DNA of 38,448 bases from Elusimicrobia bacterium HGW-Elusimicrobia-2 (GTDB lineage Bacteria; CG03), in contig PHAM01000009.1 in NCBI GenBank assembly GCA_002841685.1, positions 1 to 38,448 on the forward strand, read 5' to 3'. Positions 26,243 to 38,363 of this stretch are shown here, in pieces; position 1 is the first letter of the stretch, and every line of letters starts with the position of its first letter. The notes under the pieces were generated by a model. It saw nothing but the letters and a program-made list of their open reading frames with translations. It made no database searches and was not told the origin of the DNA. The translations under genes and the position numbers were made by a program.

Positions 26243-26290
26243 TTGACAACCTTAATCCGATTATGCTATAAATGCTATAGCGTTTATAGC
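26243..26290 (+). promoter_or_regulatory. Promoter and palindromic operator for the hsd operon
   Basis: TTGACA at 26243-26248, an 18-base spacer, and TATAAA at 26267-26272 with TG one base upstream. A 26-base near-perfect palindrome at 26265-26290 covers the -10 box and start-point. It has arms GCTATAAA and TTTATAGC and the self-complementary centre GCTATAGC, with only one mismatched pair (positions 9 and 18). The first gene downstream begins with an XRE-type DNA-binding domain, so autorepression at this site is likely. Only the leader of a few bases lies between the palindrome and the ribosome site. Confidence 0.75.
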
Positions 26291-26303
26291 TATGGAGGCA
26301 ATT

Positions 26304-28124
26304 ATGGATTTTAAAGATATTTCAAAAATTATTGGCCAATTGCGAGAAGAAAGTGGTTTAACCCAAGAAAATCTCGCCCAGAAATTAAATGTTTCCTTCT
26401 CTACAGTAAACCGATGGGAAACCGGAAAAAGCGAACCGCATGGCAAAGCAAAAACAAAAATTCTTGAACTTATTGAAAAAGCGGACTTAGATATCAACGA
26501 GCCATCTTCAGTTATATCACCACAACGAAAAAAAATTAAATCTAAAAATGATGTTTTGAGCACAAAATCCATGGAGCAGATGCTCTGGAGCGCCGCTTGT
26601 TCTATCCGGGGAGAAAAAGACGCCCCCAAATTCAAAGATTATATTCTTCCGCTTCTATTTATTAAAAGGCTGTCTGATGTATTTGAAGATGAGATACTAA
26701 GGCTTACAGAAAAATACGGGGATCAAAAACTTGCGGAATCTTTGGTAGAGGGAGATCGCACACTCGTCAGATTTTATATACCCCCGGCAGCGCGTTGGCA
26801 GGTACTTAGCGGACGGAACCAATTTAATTGGCCGAAAGATAAAAAACCCAAAACACTCGGCGAGCAGCTTACTCTCACAATGCGGGCTATTGTAAAAACA
26901 AATTCCAGATTGAGTGGTGTTATTGATATAGTGGATTATAACGAGACCAGAAACAACGAACGCGAAATAAGTGATTCCGCGCTTTCCGGCATCATAGAAA
27001 TTTTCTCTGACCCAAAATACCGATTAGGCTTAAATGATGTTGAACCTGATTTTCTCGGGCGGGCATATGAATATTTGCTTCGTAAATTTGCCGAAGGACA
27101 GGGGCAAAGCGCTGGTGAATTTTTTACGCCAACTGAAGTCGGCTGGCTGATGGCAAATATTATCAGACCTGAACAGGGAGAAGAAGCCTATGATTATTGT
27201 TGCGGGTCAGCGGGGCTTCTCATAAAATGTCAGCTTGCCTTGAAAGAACGGGATACAAAAATTAACCGCCCGCTTCAGCTTTATGGACAGGAATTTACCG
27301 GATCCACTTATGCCATAGCGCAAATGAATATGGTAATACACGATATGGAGGGAGAAATAGTCCGAGGCAACACAATGACGAATCCTAAATTCAGGGATTC
27401 AAATTCCAGCCTGAAAAAATTTGACATAGTTGTTGCTAATCCGATGTGGAACCAGCCCTTTGACCAGTCTGTTTATGAAAATGACCCGTTCGACCGCTTT
27501 GAATCACAAGGCGGGATAACTGCCGGTAAAGCCGATTGGGCCTGGCTTCAACACACTTCCGCTTCTTTAAATATGCATGGCAGAGCCGCCATCGTTTTAG
27601 ATACCGGCGCAGTAACCAGAGGCAGCGGTAGTAAAAATGAAGATAAAGAAAAGACTATAAGAAAATGGTTTGTTGATAGGGATTTTGTCGAAGGAGTAAT
27701 TCTTCTTCCGGATAATCTTTTTTATAATACTTCGGCCGCTGGAATTATTGTATTTTTAAACAAGAATAAACCCGCAATCCGGAAAAATAAAATCATTTTG
27801 ATAAACGCCAGTAATGAATGTAAAAAAGGCCGGCCCAAAAACTACATTCCAGACGAAAGTATAAAAAAAATATCACAGGCATTTATCAAAGGCGCAGATA
27901 TTGACAAGTTTGTTCGTGTTATCACAACAATGGAGGCTAAAAAAAATGATTATAATTTATCTCCTTCAAGATACATTGATGTTTCCGATAAAGTCGCCTA
28001 TCGCCCTATTCCTGAATTATTAAATGAGTTGAAGGGTTTGGAAAAAGACTCAAAAAAGATAGATGCCGAGCTGGATACTATCTTTAAAAAACTATCCAAA
28101 CAGATAGCGGGAGGAACAACATAA
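26304..28124 (+). CDS. hsdM: Type I DNA methyltransferase HsdM fused to an XRE helix-turn-helix domain
   Basis: A 606-residue fusion. Residues about 6-55 are an XRE/Cro-type domain (IIGQLREESGLTQENLAQKL, STVNRWETGKSEPHG), as found in restriction controller proteins. After a basic linker, HsdM begins at about 88 with the helical N-terminal domain (MEQMLWSAACSIRG). AdoMet motif I is DYCCGSAGLL at about 297-306, and the catalytic motif IV is ANPMWNQPF, where NPPF/Y is usual. FFTPTEVGWLMA is the characteristic stretch before motif I. It methylates adenine in the sequence chosen by HsdS, protecting self DNA. ATG 26304 has GGAGG five bases upstream; ATG 26292 overlaps that site. The HTH and the operator together suggest the protein controls its own operon. 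Confidence 0.92.
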   Translation: MDFKDISKIIGQLREESGLTQENLAQKLNVSFSTVNRWETGKSEPHGKAKTKILELIEKADLDINEPSSVISPQRKKIKSKNDVLSTKSMEQMLWSAACSIRGEKDAPKFKDYILPLLFIKRLSDVFEDEILRLTEKYGDQKLAESLVEGDRTLVRFYIPPAARWQVLSGRNQFNWPKDKKPKTLGEQLTLTMRAIVKTNSRLSGVIDIVDYNETRNNEREISDSALSGIIEIFSDPKYRLGLNDVEPDFLGRAYEYLLRKFAEGQGQSAGEFFTPTEVGWLMANIIRPEQGEEAYDYCCGSAGLLIKCQLALKERDTKINRPLQLYGQEFTGSTYAIAQMNMVIHDMEGEIVRGNTMTNPKFRDSNSSLKKFDIVVANPMWNQPFDQSVYENDPFDRFESQGGITAGKADWAWLQHTSASLNMHGRAAIVLDTGAVTRGSGSKNEDKEKTIRKWFVDRDFVEGVILLPDNLFYNTSAAGIIVFLNKNKPAIRKNKIILINASNECKKGRPKNYIPDESIKKISQAFIKGADIDKFVRVITTMEAKKNDYNLSPSRYIDVSDKVAYRPIPELLNELKGLEKDSKKIDAELDTIFKKLSKQIAGGTT

Positions 28125-28125
28125 G

Positions 28126-29172
28126 ATGAAAGAAAATTCAGAAATTGTGTTGTATACCAGTCCCGATGGACAAATAAAAGTTGAGGTGCGTTTACAGGAT
28201 GAAACCGTATGGCTGACACAATCAGCATTGGCGGAATTATATCAAACAACTCCTCAAAATATTACATTACATTTGAAAGCCATATACGCTGAAGGAGAAC
28301 TTGATAAAATAGCAACTTGTAAGGAATACTTACAAGTTCAAAAAGAGGGAGCGCGGCAAATATCACGGAAGCGAAAGTTTTATAATCTCCCGGCTATCCT
28401 AGCTGTGGGTTATCGTGTTCATTCTCCTCGCGGAACCCAATTCCGAAAATGGGCTACGGCATGCCTGAATGAATTTCTTGTTAAGGGATTCTTAATGGAT
28501 GATGAACGTTTAAAAGCGGGAGTAAATATAGGTTCTGATTATTTTGATGAAATACTGGAACGTATCAGGGATATCCGTTCCAGCGAAAAACGGTTTTATC
28601 AAAAAATCCGGGATATCTATAAACTGGCTGTTGATTATGATCCTACTGCCGAGAAAACTTTGGAGTTTTTCAGTATTGTGCAAAATAAACTGCATTTTGC
28701 TATTTCAGGAAAAACCGCTGCCGAACTTATTGCCGAACGGTCGGACTCTAAAAAAAACAATATGGGCCTTACGGCCTGGAAGGGGGTAAAAGTCCGCAAA
28801 GGAGATGTGATAATTGCAAAAAACTATTTAAACGAAAGTGAAATGGACGGACTCAACCGGATTGTGACGATGTATTTGGATTATGCGGAGGATCAGGCAA
28901 AACGCCATCGGCAAATATTTATGCGTGACTGGCAAAAAAAGTTAAATGCTTTTTTAAAGTTAAATGAACGGATGATTTTACGTAACTCCGGAAAAGTAAG
29001 TAAAAAAATTGCTGATGAATTGGCAATTAAAAGATATGGAATCTATCATCAGCAGCGATTGACTGCGGAAGCGCAACGGGAAGCAATTGAGGATGATAAT
29101 GAATTGAAACGTATTCAAAAGAAAATAGAAAAAAAGAGGAGGAAAAACAATGGCAAGCAAGAAAACGATTGA
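28126..29172 (+). CDS. RhuM-family protein
   Basis: A 348-residue protein of the RhuM family, first named from a Salmonella pathogenicity island and often found inside type I RM loci. Its biochemical role is not established. The N-terminal region has the typical DGQIKVEVRLQDETVWLTQS and ALAELYQTTPQNITLHL, a Bro-N/KilA-like DNA-binding helix-turn-helix. Then comes ILAVGYRVHSPRGTQFRKWA and a long helical C-terminus ending in a lysine-rich tail (KRIQKKIEKKRRKNN). It starts one base after the hsdM stop, with GGGAGG eleven bases upstream, and overlaps the HNH gene by 23 bases. The placement suggests it modulates or accompanies the RM enzyme. Confidence 0.88.
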   Translation: MKENSEIVLYTSPDGQIKVEVRLQDETVWLTQSALAELYQTTPQNITLHLKAIYAEGELDKIATCKEYLQVQKEGARQISRKRKFYNLPAILAVGYRVHSPRGTQFRKWATACLNEFLVKGFLMDDERLKAGVNIGSDYFDEILERIRDIRSSEKRFYQKIRDIYKLAVDYDPTAEKTLEFFSIVQNKLHFAISGKTAAELIAERSDSKKNNMGLTAWKGVKVRKGDVIIAKNYLNESEMDGLNRIVTMYLDYAEDQAKRHRQIFMRDWQKKLNAFLKLNERMILRNSGKVSKKIADELAIKRYGIYHQQRLTAEAQREAIEDDNELKRIQKKIEKKRRKNNGKQEND

Positions 29173-29407
29173 ACAGGTGTGGGAAAAAGCTCAACCTTTT
29201 AAAAGACAAAATCCAGACGTATTCAGAAGAGATCCGAAAGGAAATAAGATCCGCTGGGGTTCTTACGGAATACAGGGGGAGTATGGTTGGGAAATAGACC
29301 ATAAAAACCCGAAGGCAAAAGGCGGAAGCGATAAACCGCAAAACCTTCAGCCGCTTCATTGGGAGGAAAATAGAGAAAAATCGGATAAATATCCGTCAAA
29401 GAAATGA
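29150..29407 (+). CDS. Small HNH endonuclease domain protein
   Basis: An 85-residue protein consisting of little more than an HNH fold: YGWEIDHKNPKAKGG at about 45-59, then SDKPQNLQPLHWEENREKS at 60-78. The DH pair, the central asparagine and the final histidine are all in place for a metal-dependent nuclease. The start ATG 29150 has GAGGAGG seven bases upstream and lies in the end of rhuM. Such stand-alone HNH proteins occur as nicking enzymes or as subunits of larger nucleases. Inside an hsd operon it could add a second cutting activity, but this is inferred. Confidence 0.8.
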   Translation: MASKKTIEQVWEKAQPFKRQNPDVFRRDPKGNKIRWGSYGIQGEYGWEIDHKNPKAKGGSDKPQNLQPLHWEENREKSDKYPSKK

Positions 29408-29423
29408 TATTAAGGGGGTAGAA

Positions 29424-29759
29424 ATGGCTCAATTAGGAAAAATTACTTTTACTGGAAAATCTGGCAATAAATATGATTTCATTGCTTATTCTTGGGATAC
29501 TAATTTCAAAGAAGGTTATGGCGCAGTATATTTTATTACCAAAAGAACACAAAAAGCTACTGGCGGGTATAACCACGTAGAAATTTATGTTGGAGAAACC
29601 GAAGATTTATCTACAAGATTTGATAATCATCACAAAGAGGATTGTTTTAAAAAATATAACGCCAACTGTAAGTGTATTCACGGGGAACAAAACAAAGAGA
29701 CAAGATTGGCTATCGAAAAAGATTTGATTGACAACTACAATCTGCCTTGTAATGACTAA
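29424..29759 (+). CDS. GIY-YIG-like small protein
   Basis: A 111-residue protein with features of a GIY-YIG nuclease: GAVYFITKR at about 33-41 and VEIYVGETEDLSTRF at about 51-65 stand for the GIY and YIG strands and the conserved arginine. The glutamate in QNKETRLAIEKDLIDNYNLP fits the later helix of the fold. GIY reads AVY and YIG reads YVG, acceptable variants. The ribosome site is a run of G at about 29414-29419. It overlaps hsdS by eight bases, so it is part of the hsd operon. Whether it cuts DNA is unproven; the catalytic residues appear kept. Confidence 0.7.
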   Translation: MAQLGKITFTGKSGNKYDFIAYSWDTNFKEGYGAVYFITKRTQKATGGYNHVEIYVGETEDLSTRFDNHHKEDCFKKYNANCKCIHGEQNKETRLAIEKDLIDNYNLPCND

Positions 29760-30888
29760 TAATATTATGGTTAAATGGAATAAAGAGCCTTTTGTAGAAT
29801 CTATTGAACATATGCGAACAGAACGCACAAAACAAATTCAAAAAAATGCCTATTTGCAAAATGGTGCTTATCCAATAATCGATCAAGGTCAAGACAAAAT
29901 TGCTGGCTGGACAAATGACGAACAGTCCGTAATTAATGAAAACCTACCATTAATAATTTTTGGAGATCATACCCGGATTTTTAAATACATAGATTTTCCA
30001 TTTGCAGTTGGAGCAGATGGAACCAAACTTATTAAACCCAAAAACAAATTCAATCCGAGATATTTCTATTATTATTTATTAACATTAGACATCCCCAGTA
30101 AAGGATATAGTCGCCATTATAGAACACTTAAAGAAAAGTCAATCAATTATCTCCCTCTTCCCGAACAGAGAAAAATTGCGGCGATTCTTTTTAAGATACA
30201 GCAGGCCATCGAAACACAGGAAAAAATATTGGCCAATTTGCAGGAACTAAAAAAATCCACAATGGAATATCTTTTCACACACGGCACCAAAGGCGAAAAA
30301 ACTAAACAGACAGAAATCGGACAGATTCCTGAGAGTTGGGAGGTAGAAACATTCTTAGATACCATTGATGATTTCAAAATAGACCGCGAAAAACAAATAC
30401 AAGCAAATGTTTATTTATCTGAAGGAAAGTATCCAATAATTGATCAAGGTCAAAAACTTGTTTCAGGATGGACAAATAATGAAGCAGATATATTACGAAA
30501 CGACTTGCCATTAATAATATTTGGTGATCATACCCGGGTCTTTAAATATGTAGATTCCCCTTTTGCTATAGGAGCTGATGGTACAAAAATAATTAAACCT
30601 CAAAGCAGATTTTACGCAAAATATTTTTACTATTATCTATTGAGGTTGGATATTCCAAGTAAAGGATATAGTCGTCATTATAAGACATTGAAGGAAAAAG
30701 AAATATTTTATCCCATTTTCTCAGAGCAAAAAGAAATCGCAAATATATTAGAAACAATCGACCGCAAAACAGCTTATCATAGTTTTAAAAAGATAATGTT
30801 GAACAATCTTTTTAATTCTATGCTTAATAAATTGATGACCGGAGAAATACGAGTTAATAATTTGGATATTAAATTAACTGATGTCTAA
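29752..30888 (+). CDS. hsdS: Type I specificity subunit HsdS with two near-duplicate recognition domains
   Basis: Chooses the DNA sequence for the M and R subunits. It has two target recognition domains separated by the usual helical spacer (EQRKIAAILFKIQQAIETQE, near residues 140-160). The two TRDs are very similar: YPIIDQGQDKIAGWTN against YPIIDQGQKLVSGWTN, LPLIIFGDHTRIFKYIDFPF against LPLIIFGDHTRVFKYVDSPF, and IPSKGYSRHYRTLKEKS against IPSKGYSRHYKTLKEKE. Each TRD reads half of the bipartite site, and the two bind in opposite orientation, so a symmetrical site is predicted. I use ATG 29752, overlapping the previous stop; ATG 29767 is also possible and neither has a clear ribosome site. Confidence 0.93.
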   Translation: MTNNIMVKWNKEPFVESIEHMRTERTKQIQKNAYLQNGAYPIIDQGQDKIAGWTNDEQSVINENLPLIIFGDHTRIFKYIDFPFAVGADGTKLIKPKNKFNPRYFYYYLLTLDIPSKGYSRHYRTLKEKSINYLPLPEQRKIAAILFKIQQAIETQEKILANLQELKKSTMEYLFTHGTKGEKTKQTEIGQIPESWEVETFLDTIDDFKIDREKQIQANVYLSEGKYPIIDQGQKLVSGWTNNEADILRNDLPLIIFGDHTRVFKYVDSPFAIGADGTKIIKPQSRFYAKYFYYYLLRLDIPSKGYSRHYKTLKEKEIFYPIFSEQKEIANILETIDRKTAYHSFKKIMLNNLFNSMLNKLMTGEIRVNNLDIKLTDV

Positions 30889-30901
30889 AAAGGAGTTACA
30901 T

Positions 30902-33900
30902 ATGAAAGAAACCCCTGATTTTAAACTTTTGGATGATATACCTTGTGGAATAGCAGACACCGACATAGATAAATTCCATCATACAATGTATGCAGAAATA
31001 TTGAGAGATATATTTCTTCCAAAATCTATCCGTCCAGGAATCAGCGTTGGGCTTTTTGGAAAATGGGGACAAGGTAAAAGCACAGTTGTTTATCTCTTAA
31101 AAAAACTGTTACCCGAAAATATAAAAGTAGTTGTTTTTAATGCTTGGAAGTCTCGCGGCAAAGATAGTGTTCGACGACAACTACTGCTTAAAATTATTAA
31201 AGAGATTAATCCTGATAAATATAAAAAGATTTCAAGATTCTCAACCCCTGAATTACCAATGGAATTAAGAAGCTATGAGGAACAGGATAAATATTCTGAT
31301 AATAAATTGTGGTGGTTGCTAACAACAAAAGAAAAAATAGACCCTTGGATTACCGTTGCGCTAATTACGGCATTATTACTCTTGGCAATATCAATTTATC
31401 TATTTATTAAAGGTATATCATCCAATAATCTAAATGTTCAAACTTATATACTTTGGTGTGTCGCTACTCTCTTTGGACTTATTATAAGCTGTATTACTGT
31501 TGTGTTCAGGTGGTTTAAAAACCGCAAAAAACAAATGTTATTGGCTGCTTCGCCAATATCAGATAGCCAACGATTAAAATACCCTGAACAATTTCAGTTA
31601 GTATTTGAAAATGAAGTAAAAGAATACTGTAAGCAAGGAAAAAAAATAATCATAGTTGTGGACGATATAGACAGATGCGATCCCAATACAGTAATTGAGG
31701 CATTAGCTGCTATCCGTCAGTTTTCTCCTTGCTCACAAGAGGAATCATCCGAAAATATTAATTGTCAATTCCTTATTCCTTGTGATGAAAATCAAGTTGT
31801 AACGGCATTAGAAGCAGATGGATTTAAGGAAAATAATGATAGCTCACAATACCATGACTACCATAGTGATGAACGGCTTAGGAAATTCTTTGACATAATA
31901 ATACACATGGATTCGCATCAGGTAGACGAACTTGTTTTATATGCTGCTGACCTAGCAAAAACCATAAATATTGACCCAGATATTGCACGTGATATTGTTG
32001 AATTAAGCAACCCCCAAGATCCAAGAGCAGTAAAAAAGCTTTTGAATGCGTATAAAATCGCAAAAGCTAAGATCAAAAATATGCAAAAAAACAATAAATT
32101 GCCCGCAACAGAAGAAATGCCTTGTTTTGAAAGAACCTTGATTACATTGATAGCTTTACGCGAAATTACACCCAAGGACTACGAAATAATAAAAATGAAT
32201 CCTATTTTAATATTGAATAGAACAATCGATAAAACTAGCGATTCAGAGATAAGCCCCCGGGGAAAATCAATCTTAAATATAGCTGGGGAAGTTAACCATT
32301 TAACTGCCGCATATTTAATTAGAGGAAGATATGAGCGTGAATTACATGGGAACAAAGAGTCATGGAAATTCTTACAAAAATTTGAAGAGAAAAATGCAAC
32401 GGATTTGAAAAACGTCATATCAATAGCATCTCCTGATGAGCAAAGAAAATACCTATCATTTATGAAAAGCCAAGTAAAAAAACAGTATGGCGATATCAAA
32501 CTAAGAGAACTCCTTTCTTTATTTGTCAATTATGCGGTATTAGATAGTTCAAGCGCCGATTTCATAAAGCCCTGCATTGAAAAAATTATTGAATTAGATA
32601 CGGTATTGGAAAAAATCATGAAGAGATTCCAAAAATATGAAGAACTGCTAAAAGCAATATCTCCTTTACCAATTAATTTGAAAAATCGATTATTCTGGGC
32701 AGTATTCAATAACTTCAAATCAACAAATGATAGCAATGAAGAATTACGTTTTCTATTTTTTAACGCTAACGAATTTGAACCTAAATTGTTACAGACATTC
32801 AAAAGTTGGATGTTGAAATATATTGAAGATGGCCGCGCTAAAAATGAACGCGATATGTTAGGTGTTTTAATGAAAACTCTTCCAAAAGATTCTAAGAAGT
32901 TTTATGGTTTTCTTCCTGATGCTGGGCTTCTTTTTTGTAAAACGGATAAGTCGCCAAATCAGCAGTGGAATGATGATAGTGTCGATGCAGATGAATCTAC
33001 CTGGCCACATTTACAAATCATTCCGACTTTTGTCGGAAATAATATAGTTGTGGCTAATAAGGCTATTCAGATTCTTTTAAGCAAAGATGGCCCATTAGCT
33101 TCCCTCACCGATTTGTCAAAACCTCCTTTGGGTTATTTACCGGCTTGGAAAACTATAGGGGCTTTATGTAAAGTGCTTAATTCAGAAGAATCCGTAACAG
33201 GATTATTTTCTTTACTTTGGGGATGGCTAAATGCGCAAAGTACTTTCAAAGGAAGATTAATTATTTTAGAAGAGATAGCGCCTATACTGTTATTGTTTCA
33301 ACAAAGAGAAATAATCCAATTAGCTTCTTATATTGGGAACTCTGTTATAAACCAGGCGGAAGGAATTGATGTATTGGACTGGATTGGTGCAAAACCTAAA
33401 GATAAAAATAAACAAGAAAAGTGGATTCTGCTAACTGAGAAAATATTTAACTCTATTGTGGCACAGTTACAAACTTTGTCTTCCCTAAACGTGCACCAGC
33501 AAGAACTGCTCAAAAAGATAGCTCTACTTAAATGGCCTATAGAAATTGTGGCCGATCAAATCCTATCAACTAAAATAAAAAATATTCCAGTTACAACGCT
33601 TGAAGTCTGGATAGAATTTTTGCTGCCATTAATGAGGACAAAACGAGAAAATTCAGGTTCTATCATTAGAAAATTACTAACTGCCAGACAGAGAATTAAA
33701 GAATCACTAAAAGCAGGTAAATCTATACTCTGGGAAAATAAAATCTCTGCTGATGACGCTACAATTATAGTAGCTGTCATAGGAGATAAGATAGGAGAAT
33801 TTCATACACTATCAGATGAACTCAGTAAATTAACTAATGTGCCTGGCGCAACAAAAATATTTGAAAATTTAGTGGATTTACATAGAGGTTTCACTCCTGA

Positions 33901-34174
33901 TGAATTACATCAAAGATTTCTTATATTAAAATATGTAGCTGCAGGAATTAATAAATGTTCGCAAGATTATAAAATTAAATTTCAAGAAATTATGCGAAAG
34001 ATGTTTATCACTGATAAAACACCAATAGTTTTAGAAGCAATAGATATTTTATCTGATTTAGATTCATTGGATAAAAAATTTATTCGGGAGCTTAAGCAAA
34101 AAACCGCTGAAACAAAAGATGATTCTATTAGAAAAAAGTTAGAAGAGCTTTTGAGAAAGCAAGATGCGAAATAG
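30902..34174 (+). CDS. KAP-family P-loop ATPase with long helical C-terminal region
   Basis: A 1090-residue protein. Walker A is GKWGQGKST at 53-61 and Walker B IIIVVDDIDRC at 249-259. Two transmembrane helices lie between them, at about 151-171 (ITVALITALLLLAISIYLFI) and 181-203 (YILWCVATLFGLIISCITVV). That insertion inside the P-loop domain is the mark of the KAP family (Kidins220/ARMS and PifA), placing the ATPase on the cytosolic face of the inner membrane. From about 400 on there are some 690 residues of alpha-helical sequence, probably a HEAT/ARM-like solenoid. PifA excludes phage T7, and KAP proteins recur in defence islands. ATG 30902 is preceded by AGGAG at 30891-30895; the ATG at 30881 overlaps hsdS. 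Its place between hsdS and hsdR makes it a likely functional partner. Confidence 0.88.
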   Translation: MKETPDFKLLDDIPCGIADTDIDKFHHTMYAEILRDIFLPKSIRPGISVGLFGKWGQGKSTVVYLLKKLLPENIKVVVFNAWKSRGKDSVRRQLLLKIIKEINPDKYKKISRFSTPELPMELRSYEEQDKYSDNKLWWLLTTKEKIDPWITVALITALLLLAISIYLFIKGISSNNLNVQTYILWCVATLFGLIISCITVVFRWFKNRKKQMLLAASPISDSQRLKYPEQFQLVFENEVKEYCKQGKKIIIVVDDIDRCDPNTVIEALAAIRQFSPCSQEESSENINCQFLIPCDENQVVTALEADGFKENNDSSQYHDYHSDERLRKFFDIIIHMDSHQVDELVLYAADLAKTINIDPDIARDIVELSNPQDPRAVKKLLNAYKIAKAKIKNMQKNNKLPATEEMPCFERTLITLIALREITPKDYEIIKMNPILILNRTIDKTSDSEISPRGKSILNIAGEVNHLTAAYLIRGRYERELHGNKESWKFLQKFEEKNATDLKNVISIASPDEQRKYLSFMKSQVKKQYGDIKLRELLSLFVNYAVLDSSSADFIKPCIEKIIELDTVLEKIMKRFQKYEELLKAISPLPINLKNRLFWAVFNNFKSTNDSNEELRFLFFNANEFEPKLLQTFKSWMLKYIEDGRAKNERDMLGVLMKTLPKDSKKFYGFLPDAGLLFCKTDKSPNQQWNDDSVDADESTWPHLQIIPTFVGNNIVVANKAIQILLSKDGPLASLTDLSKPPLGYLPAWKTIGALCKVLNSEESVTGLFSLLWGWLNAQSTFKGRLIILEEIAPILLLFQQREIIQLASYIGNSVINQAEGIDVLDWIGAKPKDKNKQEKWILLTEKIFNSIVAQLQTLSSLNVHQQELLKKIALLKWPIEIVADQILSTKIKNIPVTTLEVWIEFLLPLMRTKRENSGSIIRKLLTARQRIKESLKAGKSILWENKISADDATIIVAVIGDKIGEFHTLSDELSKLTNVPGATKIFENLVDLHRGFTPDELHQRFLILKYVAAGINKCSQDYKIKFQEIMRKMFITDKTPIVLEAIDILSDLDSLDKKFIRELKQKTAETKDDSIRKKLEELLRKQDAK

Positions 34175-34233: not shown

Positions 34234-37158
34234 ATGTCTGAAAATAAGGGATTAGAATACAGTTCGGTTCAAAAGCCGATGATTAAATATGCGTCGGCGA
34301 TTGGCTGGGATCCTGTCAGTCAAGCAGATGCCTTATCGCTGAGAAAAGGCGAAGGCGGTCTGCTTTTTTACAGGATACTTGAAGAAAAACTTATTGAGTT
34401 AAATCCCGGTTTAATAAATAAAGACAATGTCTATGAAGTAATCGGAAAGATTGAATCTGTCAGCAATAATATTGAGGGTAATGCTGAAATTCTTTCCTGG
34501 ATGAGGGGAGAAAAAAGCATATATGATTCCAAAGAAAAAAGGGAAAGAAATGTGACTGTTATTGATTTTTCAACACAGGCGCTGAAAAACAATTTGTTTC
34601 AAGTTACTGAAGAATGGCAATACGGCAATGCCAAAGAGAAAAACCGCGCGGATATAATTTTCCTGATAAACGGAATACCGGTAGCAATAGTAGAAAATAA
34701 AAGCGCTAAAAAAGAAAAAGGAATTGAAGAAGCTCTGATTCAAATCCGGGAATATCATCATGAAACTCCTGAGATGCTTACAATGCCCCAGGTGTTTGAT
34801 ATAACCCATCTGATAGACTTTTTCTATGGGGCTACATGGAGTCTCGGAAGAAAAAATATATTTAACTGGAAGGATGAAGAAAAAGGTAACTTCGAAGTCA
34901 AAATAAAGAAATTTTTTAACAGAGAACGTTTTCTTAAAATGCTCAAAGAATGGATTTTGTTTTACCTGAAGGATGACGAACTTCAAAAATCCATATTGAG
35001 ACAACACCAGTCCAGAGCTGTAGAAAAGATTGTGGCCCGATGCGCTGATTCCGGCAAGAAAACGGGGTTGATATGGCACACCCAGGGATCGGGTAAAACC
35101 TTTACAATGATTATTGCGGCTAAACACATATTAGAGCAAAAAGATATTTTCAGCAAAGGTACTGTAATATTGATGATTGACCGGAACGAGCTTGAAGGAC
35201 AATTATCCGGATGGATTGCGAGAATTCTCGGGGAATTAAAAACCTTTGACATAAAAATAGAGCCTGCGACCAGCAAAAAGAGACTCCAGGAACTTTTGAA
35301 AGCAGATTTTCGCGGTCTGATAATTTCAATGATCCATAAGTTTGATAAGATTCCGAAAGCCATTAATTCGCGTGATAATATTTTTGTATTAATGGATGAA
35401 GCCCACCGATCGGTGGGTGGTGATTTTGGTAATTATCTTCTCGGAGCTCTTCCTAATGCAACCTTAATCGGTTTTACAGGAACTCCCATAGATAAAACCG
35501 CCTACGGCAAAGGTACTTTTAAAATTTTCGGGAAGGAAGATGATAAGGGGTATCTTGATAAATATTCAATAACGGAATCAATTGAAGATGGAACAACACT
35601 TCCGCTTAAATATACATTGGCGCCCAATGAAATAAGAGTTGATTCGGAACTTCTTGAAAAAGAATTCTTAAATCTGGTTGAAGCCGAAGGCGTTAGTGAT
35701 TTTGACGAACTCACGAAAATTCTTGATAATGCTGTAAATATAAAAGCATTTCTTAAATCTCCTGACAGAATTGAAAAAGTATCCAAGTTTGTCGCAAACC
35801 ATTTTAAAGAAAATGTTGAACCATTAGGATATAAAGCTTTTCTTGTAGCTGTGGATAGGGAAGCTTGCGCTTTGTATAAAGAAGCCCTTGATAAAATAGT
35901 GCCTGCCGATTACTCTGTTCCCGTATATACATCCGCCCAGCATGACAGCGAACGCTATCCGCTTGTATATAAACATCAGATTTCTGATGAAAAAGAAAAA
36001 CAGACGAGAAAGCTTTTTCTAAAAAACGATTTAAAGCCAAAAATATTGATTGTGACGGATAAACTGCTTACCGGATTTGATGCGCCTATTCTTTACAGCA
36101 TGTATCTTGATAAACCTATGCGTGACCATGTGCTTTTACAGGCAATTGCAAGAGTGAACCGCCCTTATGAAATTAACGATACAGTCAAGAAGCCCTGCGG
36201 CCTTGTTGTTGATTTTGTCGGCATATTTGAAAAACTTGAAAAAGCGCTGGCTTTTGATTCAGATGTTGTAAGCGGCGTAATTGAAAATCTGGACATATTA
36301 TTTAACCGCTTCAAGAAACTTATTAGTGAAGATGCGAAACCGCATATTGAATTATTGAAAGGGGAAATTGACGATAAAACTATTGAAAAAGCTATTGATG
36401 CCTTTTCTGATAAAAATAAACGTGAAGCTCTCTATAAATTGTACAAAGAAATTGAAACCCTTTATGAAATACTTTCCCCCTCGTCCAAACTCAGAGAATA
36501 TATTGCGCCTTTCAAACGGCTGGCTATATTATACAGGATTATAAAAAACGCCTATCGGAATAAACCTGTATTCTATGATGATATTGCCAGAAAAACATCA
36601 TTGCTTGTCCGGGACAATGTTTCTGTATCCGGCTTGGATAACACAATGAATATTGTTAAAATCGACCAGAATACACTAAAAGCTATAAAAGAAAATCAGT
36701 CATCGGACAACAATAAAATTATAAATCTTATCAATACCATACGAAAGACTGTAGAAGAAGAATCCGGCGATTCTCCCTATTTAATTCCTATCGGAGAACG
36801 GGCTGAAAATATAAGAGAACAATATGATGGTCGACAATGTTCTACAAAAGAAGCTCTTAAATCAATTGAGCAACTCATACAGGATATAATTATATCAAAG
36901 AAAGAACAGGCCGAAAAAGGTATGGATTCAAATACATTTACAATATTTTGGATACTTAAACATGAAAAGATAAATAATCCGGAAAGTGTCGCCTACGCCG
37001 TTAATTCTATTTTTATGCGATTTCCCAATTATAATTTTAATATTGAAGAAATGCGTCAGCTGAAAGCGGAATTATATCGCATTTTATTATCTGCCGTGGG
37101 AAAAGGCAAAATGTTTTCTATAGTTGGAAAACTTTTGAAAATCAATGAGAAAAAATAA
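34234..37158 (+). CDS. hsdR: Type I restriction enzyme HsdR
   Basis: The motor and nuclease subunit that moves DNA past the bound complex and cuts when blocked. Its nuclease motif is RADIIFLINGIPVAIVENKS, with D140, E154 and K156 in the PD-ExK arrangement. The helicase core shows Walker A TQGSGKT at 283-289, DEAH at 388-391, GFTGTP, ILIVTDKLLTGFDAP and motif VI QAIARVNRPY. The C-terminal 300 residues are helical, as needed for docking on HsdM. All key residues are present over 974 residues, so restriction should be active. It overlaps the small metalloprotease gene by 14 bases. Confidence 0.95.
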   Translation: MSENKGLEYSSVQKPMIKYASAIGWDPVSQADALSLRKGEGGLLFYRILEEKLIELNPGLINKDNVYEVIGKIESVSNNIEGNAEILSWMRGEKSIYDSKEKRERNVTVIDFSTQALKNNLFQVTEEWQYGNAKEKNRADIIFLINGIPVAIVENKSAKKEKGIEEALIQIREYHHETPEMLTMPQVFDITHLIDFFYGATWSLGRKNIFNWKDEEKGNFEVKIKKFFNRERFLKMLKEWILFYLKDDELQKSILRQHQSRAVEKIVARCADSGKKTGLIWHTQGSGKTFTMIIAAKHILEQKDIFSKGTVILMIDRNELEGQLSGWIARILGELKTFDIKIEPATSKKRLQELLKADFRGLIISMIHKFDKIPKAINSRDNIFVLMDEAHRSVGGDFGNYLLGALPNATLIGFTGTPIDKTAYGKGTFKIFGKEDDKGYLDKYSITESIEDGTTLPLKYTLAPNEIRVDSELLEKEFLNLVEAEGVSDFDELTKILDNAVNIKAFLKSPDRIEKVSKFVANHFKENVEPLGYKAFLVAVDREACALYKEALDKIVPADYSVPVYTSAQHDSERYPLVYKHQISDEKEKQTRKLFLKNDLKPKILIVTDKLLTGFDAPILYSMYLDKPMRDHVLLQAIARVNRPYEINDTVKKPCGLVVDFVGIFEKLEKALAFDSDVVSGVIENLDILFNRFKKLISEDAKPHIELLKGEIDDKTIEKAIDAFSDKNKREALYKLYKEIETLYEILSPSSKLREYIAPFKRLAILYRIIKNAYRNKPVFYDDIARKTSLLVRDNVSVSGLDNTMNIVKIDQNTLKAIKENQSSDNNKIINLINTIRKTVEEESGDSPYLIPIGERAENIREQYDGRQCSTKEALKSIEQLIQDIIISKKEQAEKGMDSNTFTIFWILKHEKINNPESVAYAVNSIFMRFPNYNFNIEEMRQLKAELYRILLSAVGKGKMFSIVGKLLKINEKK

Positions 37159-37447
37159 GGCTAAAACAAAAACAGAGCTTAAAAAATTAATAAATGACTG
37201 GGCGCAGGAAATAAAAGTTACTCCGAAACAAATACGAGTTCAGCAGATGAAACATAAGTGGGCTTCCTGCTCAACTTCAGGATGGATAAGTTTTAATTTT
37301 GACTTACTCAGCAAATCAAAAAAATTTCAGGATTATGTTATCATACATGAATTACTTCATCTTCAAATTCCTAATCACGGGAAATTATTTAAAAGCATGA
37401 TGAACATATTTTTTCCCGATTGGGAAAAATATGAAAGCTCTTTTTGA
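37145..37447 (+). CDS. YgjP/DUF45-type metalloprotease-like protein
   Basis: A 100-residue protein with the zinc-binding motif HELLHLQIPNH (HExxH plus a third histidine after five residues) near residues 74-84. It is preceded by KHKWASCSTSGWISFN, the W-x-S-C-x-x-x-G-x-I-x-x-N pattern of the YgjP family. Family members are commonly 170-230 residues; this is a short version lacking the N-terminal part. Such genes often end type I RM operons, with unknown purpose. The gene starts in the end of hsdR. Its stop lies in a small hairpin (AGCTCTTT-TTG-AAAGAGCT, 37436-37454) that lacks a T-run. Confidence 0.82.
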   Translation: MRKNKAKTKTELKKLINDWAQEIKVTPKQIRVQQMKHKWASCSTSGWISFNFDLLSKSKKFQDYVIIHELLHLQIPNHGKLFKSMMNIFFPDWEKYESSF

Positions 37448-37469: not shown

Positions 37470-38363
37470 CTACTCCGTTAAGTAACATTGCGCTAACCCG
37501 GGGCAAAAAATATCCAGTGCTGCATTGTAATCCAGCGATGGCAAACCGGGCATTGTGCTGCGGTAAGAACTTCCTGAATCCATTGCCTGATTTGAGGAAG
37601 CGTGTAATTTTTTGCCTCTTTTTTTCCCCTTCCGATTTTTTATCAATTGTAGAAAACAATATGCCATAAAAGTTAATGTCATATGATGATGTAACCCCCT
37701 CCATGAGCGCCCTTCAAAATGATCCAGCCCAAGTTCTTCCTTTAATTGCTGATATCCCTGTTCAATGGTCCATCTCCGATGGATTGTGTGAATCATCTTT
37801 TTCAACGATATGTTTTTGGGAAAGCTTGAAACATAATACTTCTGTTCTTCTCCGTCATTCTCAATGATAAGCCACCTTTCAATTCCCGGTCGCCAATAAG
37901 CTTTGCTGTTTGCTTCAAAAACTCGTATTCGAGTTGCTCTAACCGTTTTCCTTTTCTGCAACGGCAATTCAATTACTTGCCACTTCTTTGGCGTTTTTTC
38001 CAGTTTCTTTGCCCAGTCTTTTGCCTTTATTGGTCTCACACTTTTTTGATAAACTTCCGGATAAATCCGCGGTCGTCCCTTGCTCTTTTTCTTTCTGTTT
38101 AATCTTACATCTATTGGCCAGAAAGTGTGTGTGCAGGGAATCCTGCCAATAAATTTTTCTCTCATCCTGTCTAATTCCTTTAAGAAAGGTCTCAGTTCTC
38201 CGTATCCTGCATCAAAAATTGTACACTCATGCGGAACTTTATCTTTAATTTTCTTCAATGACTCAATTGCCATTTCCCACTTCTTTTTGTGTCCCGATCT
38301 CCTTTTCGGCACTCCTGCTTTCTTCATCCGCTTAATATCATTTGTCCACTGAGTCTGTTGCAT
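37470..38363 (-). pseudogene. IS701-type transposase, truncated and frameshifted
   Basis: The central part matches IS701 transposases: MKKAGVPKRRSG, then TIFDAGYGELRPFLKEL with the second catalytic aspartate, and WTIEQGYQQLKEELGLDHFE followed by GRSWRGLHHH with the catalytic glutamate. The N-terminal 100 or more residues, with the first catalytic aspartate, are missing; the frame is closed by a stop 27 bases above the ATG. Near the C-terminus, poly-T runs at 37608-37613 and 37619-37625 mark a frameshift. The other frame reads IRQWIQEVLTAAQCPVCHRW and ends APG-stop at 37493, the normal end of the family. The visible frame instead ends in unrelated residues at 37470. It is an inactive relic at the edge of the defence island. 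Confidence 0.85.

Follow-up and report, generated by a model that had tools for sequence, protein, structure and literature searches.

The XRE-HsdM fusion and its operon

The window, by which we mean the whole stretch of 38,448 bp that was analysed, carries a type I restriction (hsd) operon on its forward strand. The first gene of this operon (26304–28124) is a single ORF of 606 aa, in which an XRE-type helix-turn-helix domain stands before HsdM. The ORF as listed begins at 26292. A Shine-Dalgarno sequence, GGAGG, sits at 26294–26298, an arrangement also seen in the nearest relatives, and therefore the ATG at 26304 is the likely start, not 26292. An earlier reading of the sequence had placed an XRE-type domain at the N-terminus of HsdM, and Pfam bears this out, with HTH_3 at residues 12–47 (E 2e-10), the HsdM N-terminal domain HsdM_N (PF12161) at residues 90–234 (26571–27005), and the N6-adenine methyltransferase domain N6_Mtase (PF02384, 2e-89) at residues 248–562 (27045–27989), all in one ORF.

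The XRE domain comprises residues 6–60 (26319–26483), as judged from Pfam, the invariant residues and the AlphaFold helices. Its recognition helix is VSFSTVNRWE, in which N36, R37, W38 and E39 are invariant. The AlphaFold model (mean pLDDT 81) has a four-helix domain at residues 6–60, a linker predicted to be disordered at residues 65–87 (26496–26564, pLDDT below 50), and the HsdM body. The solved structures nearest to this body are type I-like M subunits, the best being PacII (7vru/7vs4). The catalytic motif is of the NPxW type (NPMW, residues 379–382) and is invariant. With HsdM_N, N6_Mtase and this motif in one protein, and with hsdS and hsdR in the same operon, the enzyme has the features of a type I HsdM.

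What kind of XRE domain is this? Among PDB sequences at E 0.01, the nearest to it are XREs of the MBF1 and PbsX types, and the solved C proteins (AhdI, BclI, Esp1396I, Csp231I) gave no match to it in the same search. By sequence, then, it is a general XRE and not recognisably a classical C protein. It is single-copy in the 1.78-Mb genome.

The gene order of the operon is hsdM-rhuM-HNH-GIY-hsdS-KAP-hsdR. A rhuM-family gene (28126–29172, PF13310), a small HNH gene (29150–29407) and a small GIY-YIG gene (29424–29759), the last two assigned by Pfam, thus occupy 28126–29759 between hsdM and hsdS (29767–30888, Pfam Methylase_S). Between hsdS and hsdR (34234–37158, TIGR00348, 1e-135) lies a Pfam-assigned KAP P-loop NTPase gene (30881–34174), with weak matches to QatA/PifA. 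Of the seven intergenic gaps, one measures 59 bp and none of the others exceeds 16 bp; hsd genes so nearly contiguous are consistent with a single transcript. HsdS is made of two similar halves, 58% identical over 156 aa with the target-recognition parts included, which suggests a symmetric bipartite target. A fragment of a YgjP-like metallopeptidase gene (37145–37447), whose match is confined to the C-terminal half of the profile, overlaps hsdR at its end, and it is followed on the reverse strand by a partial IS701-type transposase gene (37470–38363).

The hsd promoter and its palindrome

The promoter of the operon has the −35 element TTGACA (26243–26248) and the −10 element TATAAA (26267–26272), with an 18-bp spacer. 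The sequence-only reading had described a 26-base near-perfect palindrome over the −10 box, upstream of the fusion, and there is indeed one at 26265–26290, GCTATAAATGCTATAGCGTTTATAGC, with 12 of its 13 pairs matched. Given the two promoter elements and their spacing, this putative operator would span about −13 to +11, and so cover both the −10 element and the predicted start site. No other 26-bp palindrome in the window has one mismatched pair or fewer, with centre spacers of 0–10 allowed; when the intergenic stretch was resampled 3000 times, a comparable palindrome arose in 2 copies. We also considered an RNA hairpin and rejected it: with the predicted start inside the palindrome, the transcript would contain no more than half of it.

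The palindrome can be resolved into two 17-bp sub-sites of the form GCTATA-N5-TATAGC, the left at 26265–26281 and the right at 26274–26290, which overlap by 8 bp. Exact matches to this form occur at two places in the genome, which spans 1.78 Mb and is 96% complete, and both are these sub-sites at the hsd promoter. The two nearest places examined with one mismatch fall within ORFs.

The location of the sub-sites bears on whether the XRE domain activates the promoter at low concentration and represses it at high concentration, like the classical C proteins. Type II C proteins do behave as activator-repressor switches (PMC12707154), and clade A promoters can carry two or more half-site pairs (L011, L024, L026). 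Here, however, both overlapping sub-sites lie on the −10 element and the start, with none upstream of −35, and a full TTGACA is already present, unlike in activator-dependent promoters. We therefore regard such a switch as unlikely.

The half-site among relatives and controls

The fusion was used as the query against viral contigs and genomes. The genome scan gave 510 relatives among 84,980 species, of which the best 80 were kept, and nearly all of these match both the XRE part and the HsdM part. In all, 86 usable XRE-HsdM fusions form one family, with more than 15 phylum labels among them. The fusion of the window belongs to a 28-member clade, adjoining Elusimicrobiota sequences, and L130 and L131 represent a second XRE-HsdM lineage. 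Among the 30 best plasmid matches listed there is no XRE-HsdM fusion, and stand-alone kin are found there only as weak matches.

The box TATAGCA/TGCTATA is present within 90 bp upstream of the start in 50 of the 86 fusions, whereas shuffled sequences gave about 2 on average and never more than 7, and it is kept in 22 of 36 after thinning to less than 80% protein identity. With ten box variants, picked after inspection of the data, the last 60 bp contain a box in 78/86 fusions versus 2/30 unfused hsdM genes (shuffles, mean 10.5). TTGAC is likewise found in the 90 bp upstream of 62/86 fusions versus 1/30 unfused hsdM genes. By contrast, a significantly palindromic stretch (p ≤ 0.05) is found in only 20 of the 86 fusion promoters, and in the relatives the spacing of the half-sites varies and both inverted and direct repeats of them occur. 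The conserved unit is therefore the half-site, TATAGCA/TGCTATA, and the full 26-bp palindrome is the arrangement it has at this locus. The expectation that other XRE-HsdM fusions would have the palindrome upstream thus held for its half-site and not for the 26-bp palindrome itself; the 86 fusions do not consistently lack a palindrome, which would have counted against the proposal.

In the clade of the window, the upstream sequences share cTTGAC...gTtaTAATGCTATAGCATaA as their consensus, with a Shine-Dalgarno sequence after it. The other large clade, when its sequences are aligned on the ATG, has tTgac......atgc.ATATagCAaAtATagCAAAc-ATG, so near the start codon that the messages of this clade are predicted to be leaderless. 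At L004, L046, L051–L057 and L062–L071, the −10 element is very near the ATG of hsdM, with AAACATGACA around the start, and leaderless messages are predicted. Of these loci, L051 is from Sphingobium sp. Leaf26 and L052 from Chromobacterium aquaticum.

As controls, we took 30 hsdM genes that lack the fusion from the genomes of fusion carriers, the genomes of 50 loci having been searched. The strict box is in none of these 30, versus 50/86 for the fusions (Fisher 2e-9). One unfused relative, L095, is 52% identical and comes from the genome of the fusion carrier L048; it lacks the box. These genes are an imperfect control, because only 3/30 show a promoter within the 90 bp upstream, compared with 66/86 fusions. 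This weakness is met by a second control, that of XRE genes on viral contigs. The box is present in 23/32 of those with the FxTxNRWE helix and in 1/27 of those with other helices, and 13 of these 27 have promoter-like sequences.

These controls bear on the possibility that the box is merely a strong sigma-70 promoter, with the XRE domain otherwise employed, for example in steering the methyltransferase. The far better promoters of the fusions are in keeping with this, and TGCTATAAT resembles an extended −10 element, so part of the signal is promoter. However, forward-strand TATAGCA (42/86 fusions; shuffles, 1.1) and the symmetric GCTATAGC (23/86; shuffles, 0.3) are also strongly enriched, and neither improves a −10 element. 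Together with the other-helix XRE genes, of which 13/27 have promoters and only one has the box, this makes a promoter-only role for the box very improbable.

Could the palindrome instead be the site of another regulator, either RptR-like or housekeeping, whose gene lies elsewhere? The RptR site TAGCTA (PMC12255303) is in fact found at 26287–26292, where it arises by overlap. Against this, the box tracks the fused XRE across more than 15 phylum labels, and unfused hsdM genes in the genomes of fusion carriers do not have it; furthermore, the site is unique in the genome, and stand-alone kin of the XRE also carry the box. We give a separate regulator very little credence.

Methylation control would require that the operator hold the target of the system itself, as in CfrBI, and promoter methylation is known to control methyltransferase genes (PMC3978073, PMC12707154). 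Among the relatives, HsdS is about 35–45% identical at best, while HsdM is 70–75% identical, so that a box common to these systems, whose targets have presumably diverged with HsdS, is unlikely to be an HsdS or methylation target. In addition, type I targets are usually bipartite, with halves of 3–4 bp. Since HsdS diverges while the box stays, we rejected promoter methylation, which is scarcely credible here.

The search was also run in the opposite direction, from box to gene. When viral DNA was searched for the TGCTATAATNNTGCTATAA direct repeat, an NRWE XRE lay beside 1/15 matches, and the promoter pattern of clade A had no match in viral DNA. The box is thus not predictive on its own and needs its protein context. 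The XRE domain and the promoter box go together throughout the fusion family; unfused hsdM genes lack this link, which goes with the recognition helix to stand-alone XREs as well.

Proposed control by HsdM and its wider setting

We propose that HsdM is, very probably, an autorepressor of its whole operon, acting through its XRE heads. The first gene of the operon would give a dual-function protein, with the XRE domain on a flexible linker before a complete HsdM. Two XRE heads would cover the −10 element and the start by binding the inverted GCTATA/TATAGC half-sites there, and so block RNA polymerase. As HsdM accumulates, the promoter of the whole hsdM-rhuM-HNH-GIY-hsdS-KAP-hsdR operon would shut, and it would open in a fresh host or once dilution or consumption has lowered HsdM. 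The assembled M2S complex, which would carry two XRE heads, could be the best-binding species, though this is speculative. The enzyme thus probably limits its own production. Binding, repression and level-sensing by XRE-HsdM are inferred here from the position of the site and from the precedents of the SsoII and Ecl18kI methyltransferases, HsdC and RptR.

The closest of these precedents are M.SsoII, M.Ecl18kI and M.EcoRII, each of which represses its own gene through an N-terminal helix-turn-helix domain on a flexible linker and an inverted repeat in the promoter (PMC3978073, PMC12707154). The fusion has the same three elements: a helix-turn-helix domain joined to the N-terminus of the methyltransferase, a flexible linker, and an inverted repeat within its own promoter. 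Those enzymes, however, are single-subunit C5-cytosine methyltransferases of type II systems, whereas the protein here methylates adenine as the M subunit of a type I complex, and it would govern the entire M-S-R operon.

Repressors of type I operons are known as separate proteins. HsdC of Mollicutes (PMC5282649) is an XRE-like controller of a type I hsd operon that binds over the −10 element. Boxes listed for it in several species, such as TGTTATAAT and GTGCTATAAT (Table 2 of that source), resemble the half-site found here. According to the same source, HsdC is a separate protein with direct repeats, and the fusions named there involve type II methylases. RptR is the autorepressor of an Escherichia coli type I defence-island operon with inserted defence genes, and its sites also lie over the −10 element (PMC12255303). 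It differs in being an unfused four-helix protein of 79 aa with another DNA-binding mode and 6-bp TAGCTA sites (PMC12255303); the protein here has an XRE domain instead, and its promoter has a single, overlapping TAGCTA.

The classical C proteins are likewise XRE-type autoregulators of restriction systems, and fusion to an enzyme has a precedent in the C-REase fusions (PMC3850674). Their C-boxes are GACT/AGTC or CTAAG-N5-CTTAG (PMC4321490), unlike the GCTATA/TATAGC half-site here, and their target is the endonuclease gene. In the open-access papers searched, no type I HsdM is described as its own repressor, and a search by Pfam architecture names brought up nothing on an XRE-HsdM fusion. Thus, while dual-function methyltransferase repressors are established for type II systems and separate operon repressors are known for type I, a self-repressing type I HsdM appears to be new, none having been found described.

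A 2025 review finds surprisingly little information on the transcriptional control of type I systems (PMC12707154). An XRE-HsdM family so widespread, and with an operator that can be predicted, would offer a direct and testable answer for many of them, namely that expression is tied to the amount of the M subunit. It suggests a route by which a type I operon could be switched on strongly when it enters a new host and damped down afterwards, and a reason why selection could favour both functions in one protein.

On balance, we favour the broader view that the XRE domain belongs to a modular family of controllers, defined by the FxTxNRWE helix and the TGCTATA/TATAGCA box, which leads many defence operons either as a stand-alone protein of about 70 aa or fused to the first enzyme, with the operator carried along; HsdC of Mollicutes is possibly one branch. 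If so, one small DNA-binding module and its box would be a control part common to several defence systems. Stand-alone XREs of the same type precede genes for 5mC and type III methyltransferases, HsdM, HsdR, and MzaB-like and IetA-like proteins, with the box in most cases. Fused XREs of this type are found on HsdM, in two lineages, and on an HmaA-like SNF2 helicase.

Several individual loci may be recorded. Stand-alone XREs some 70 aa long that share this recognition helix lie directly before defence genes at L124, L126, L128, L133, L136, L139, L146, L150 and L162, most with a TGCTATA-type box. At L128, L136, L146 and L152, this box takes the form of 11-bp direct repeats, or nearly so. The fusions to the HmaA-like SNF2 helicase are at L134 (2465–5155) and L142 (2450–5131), each with the box upstream.
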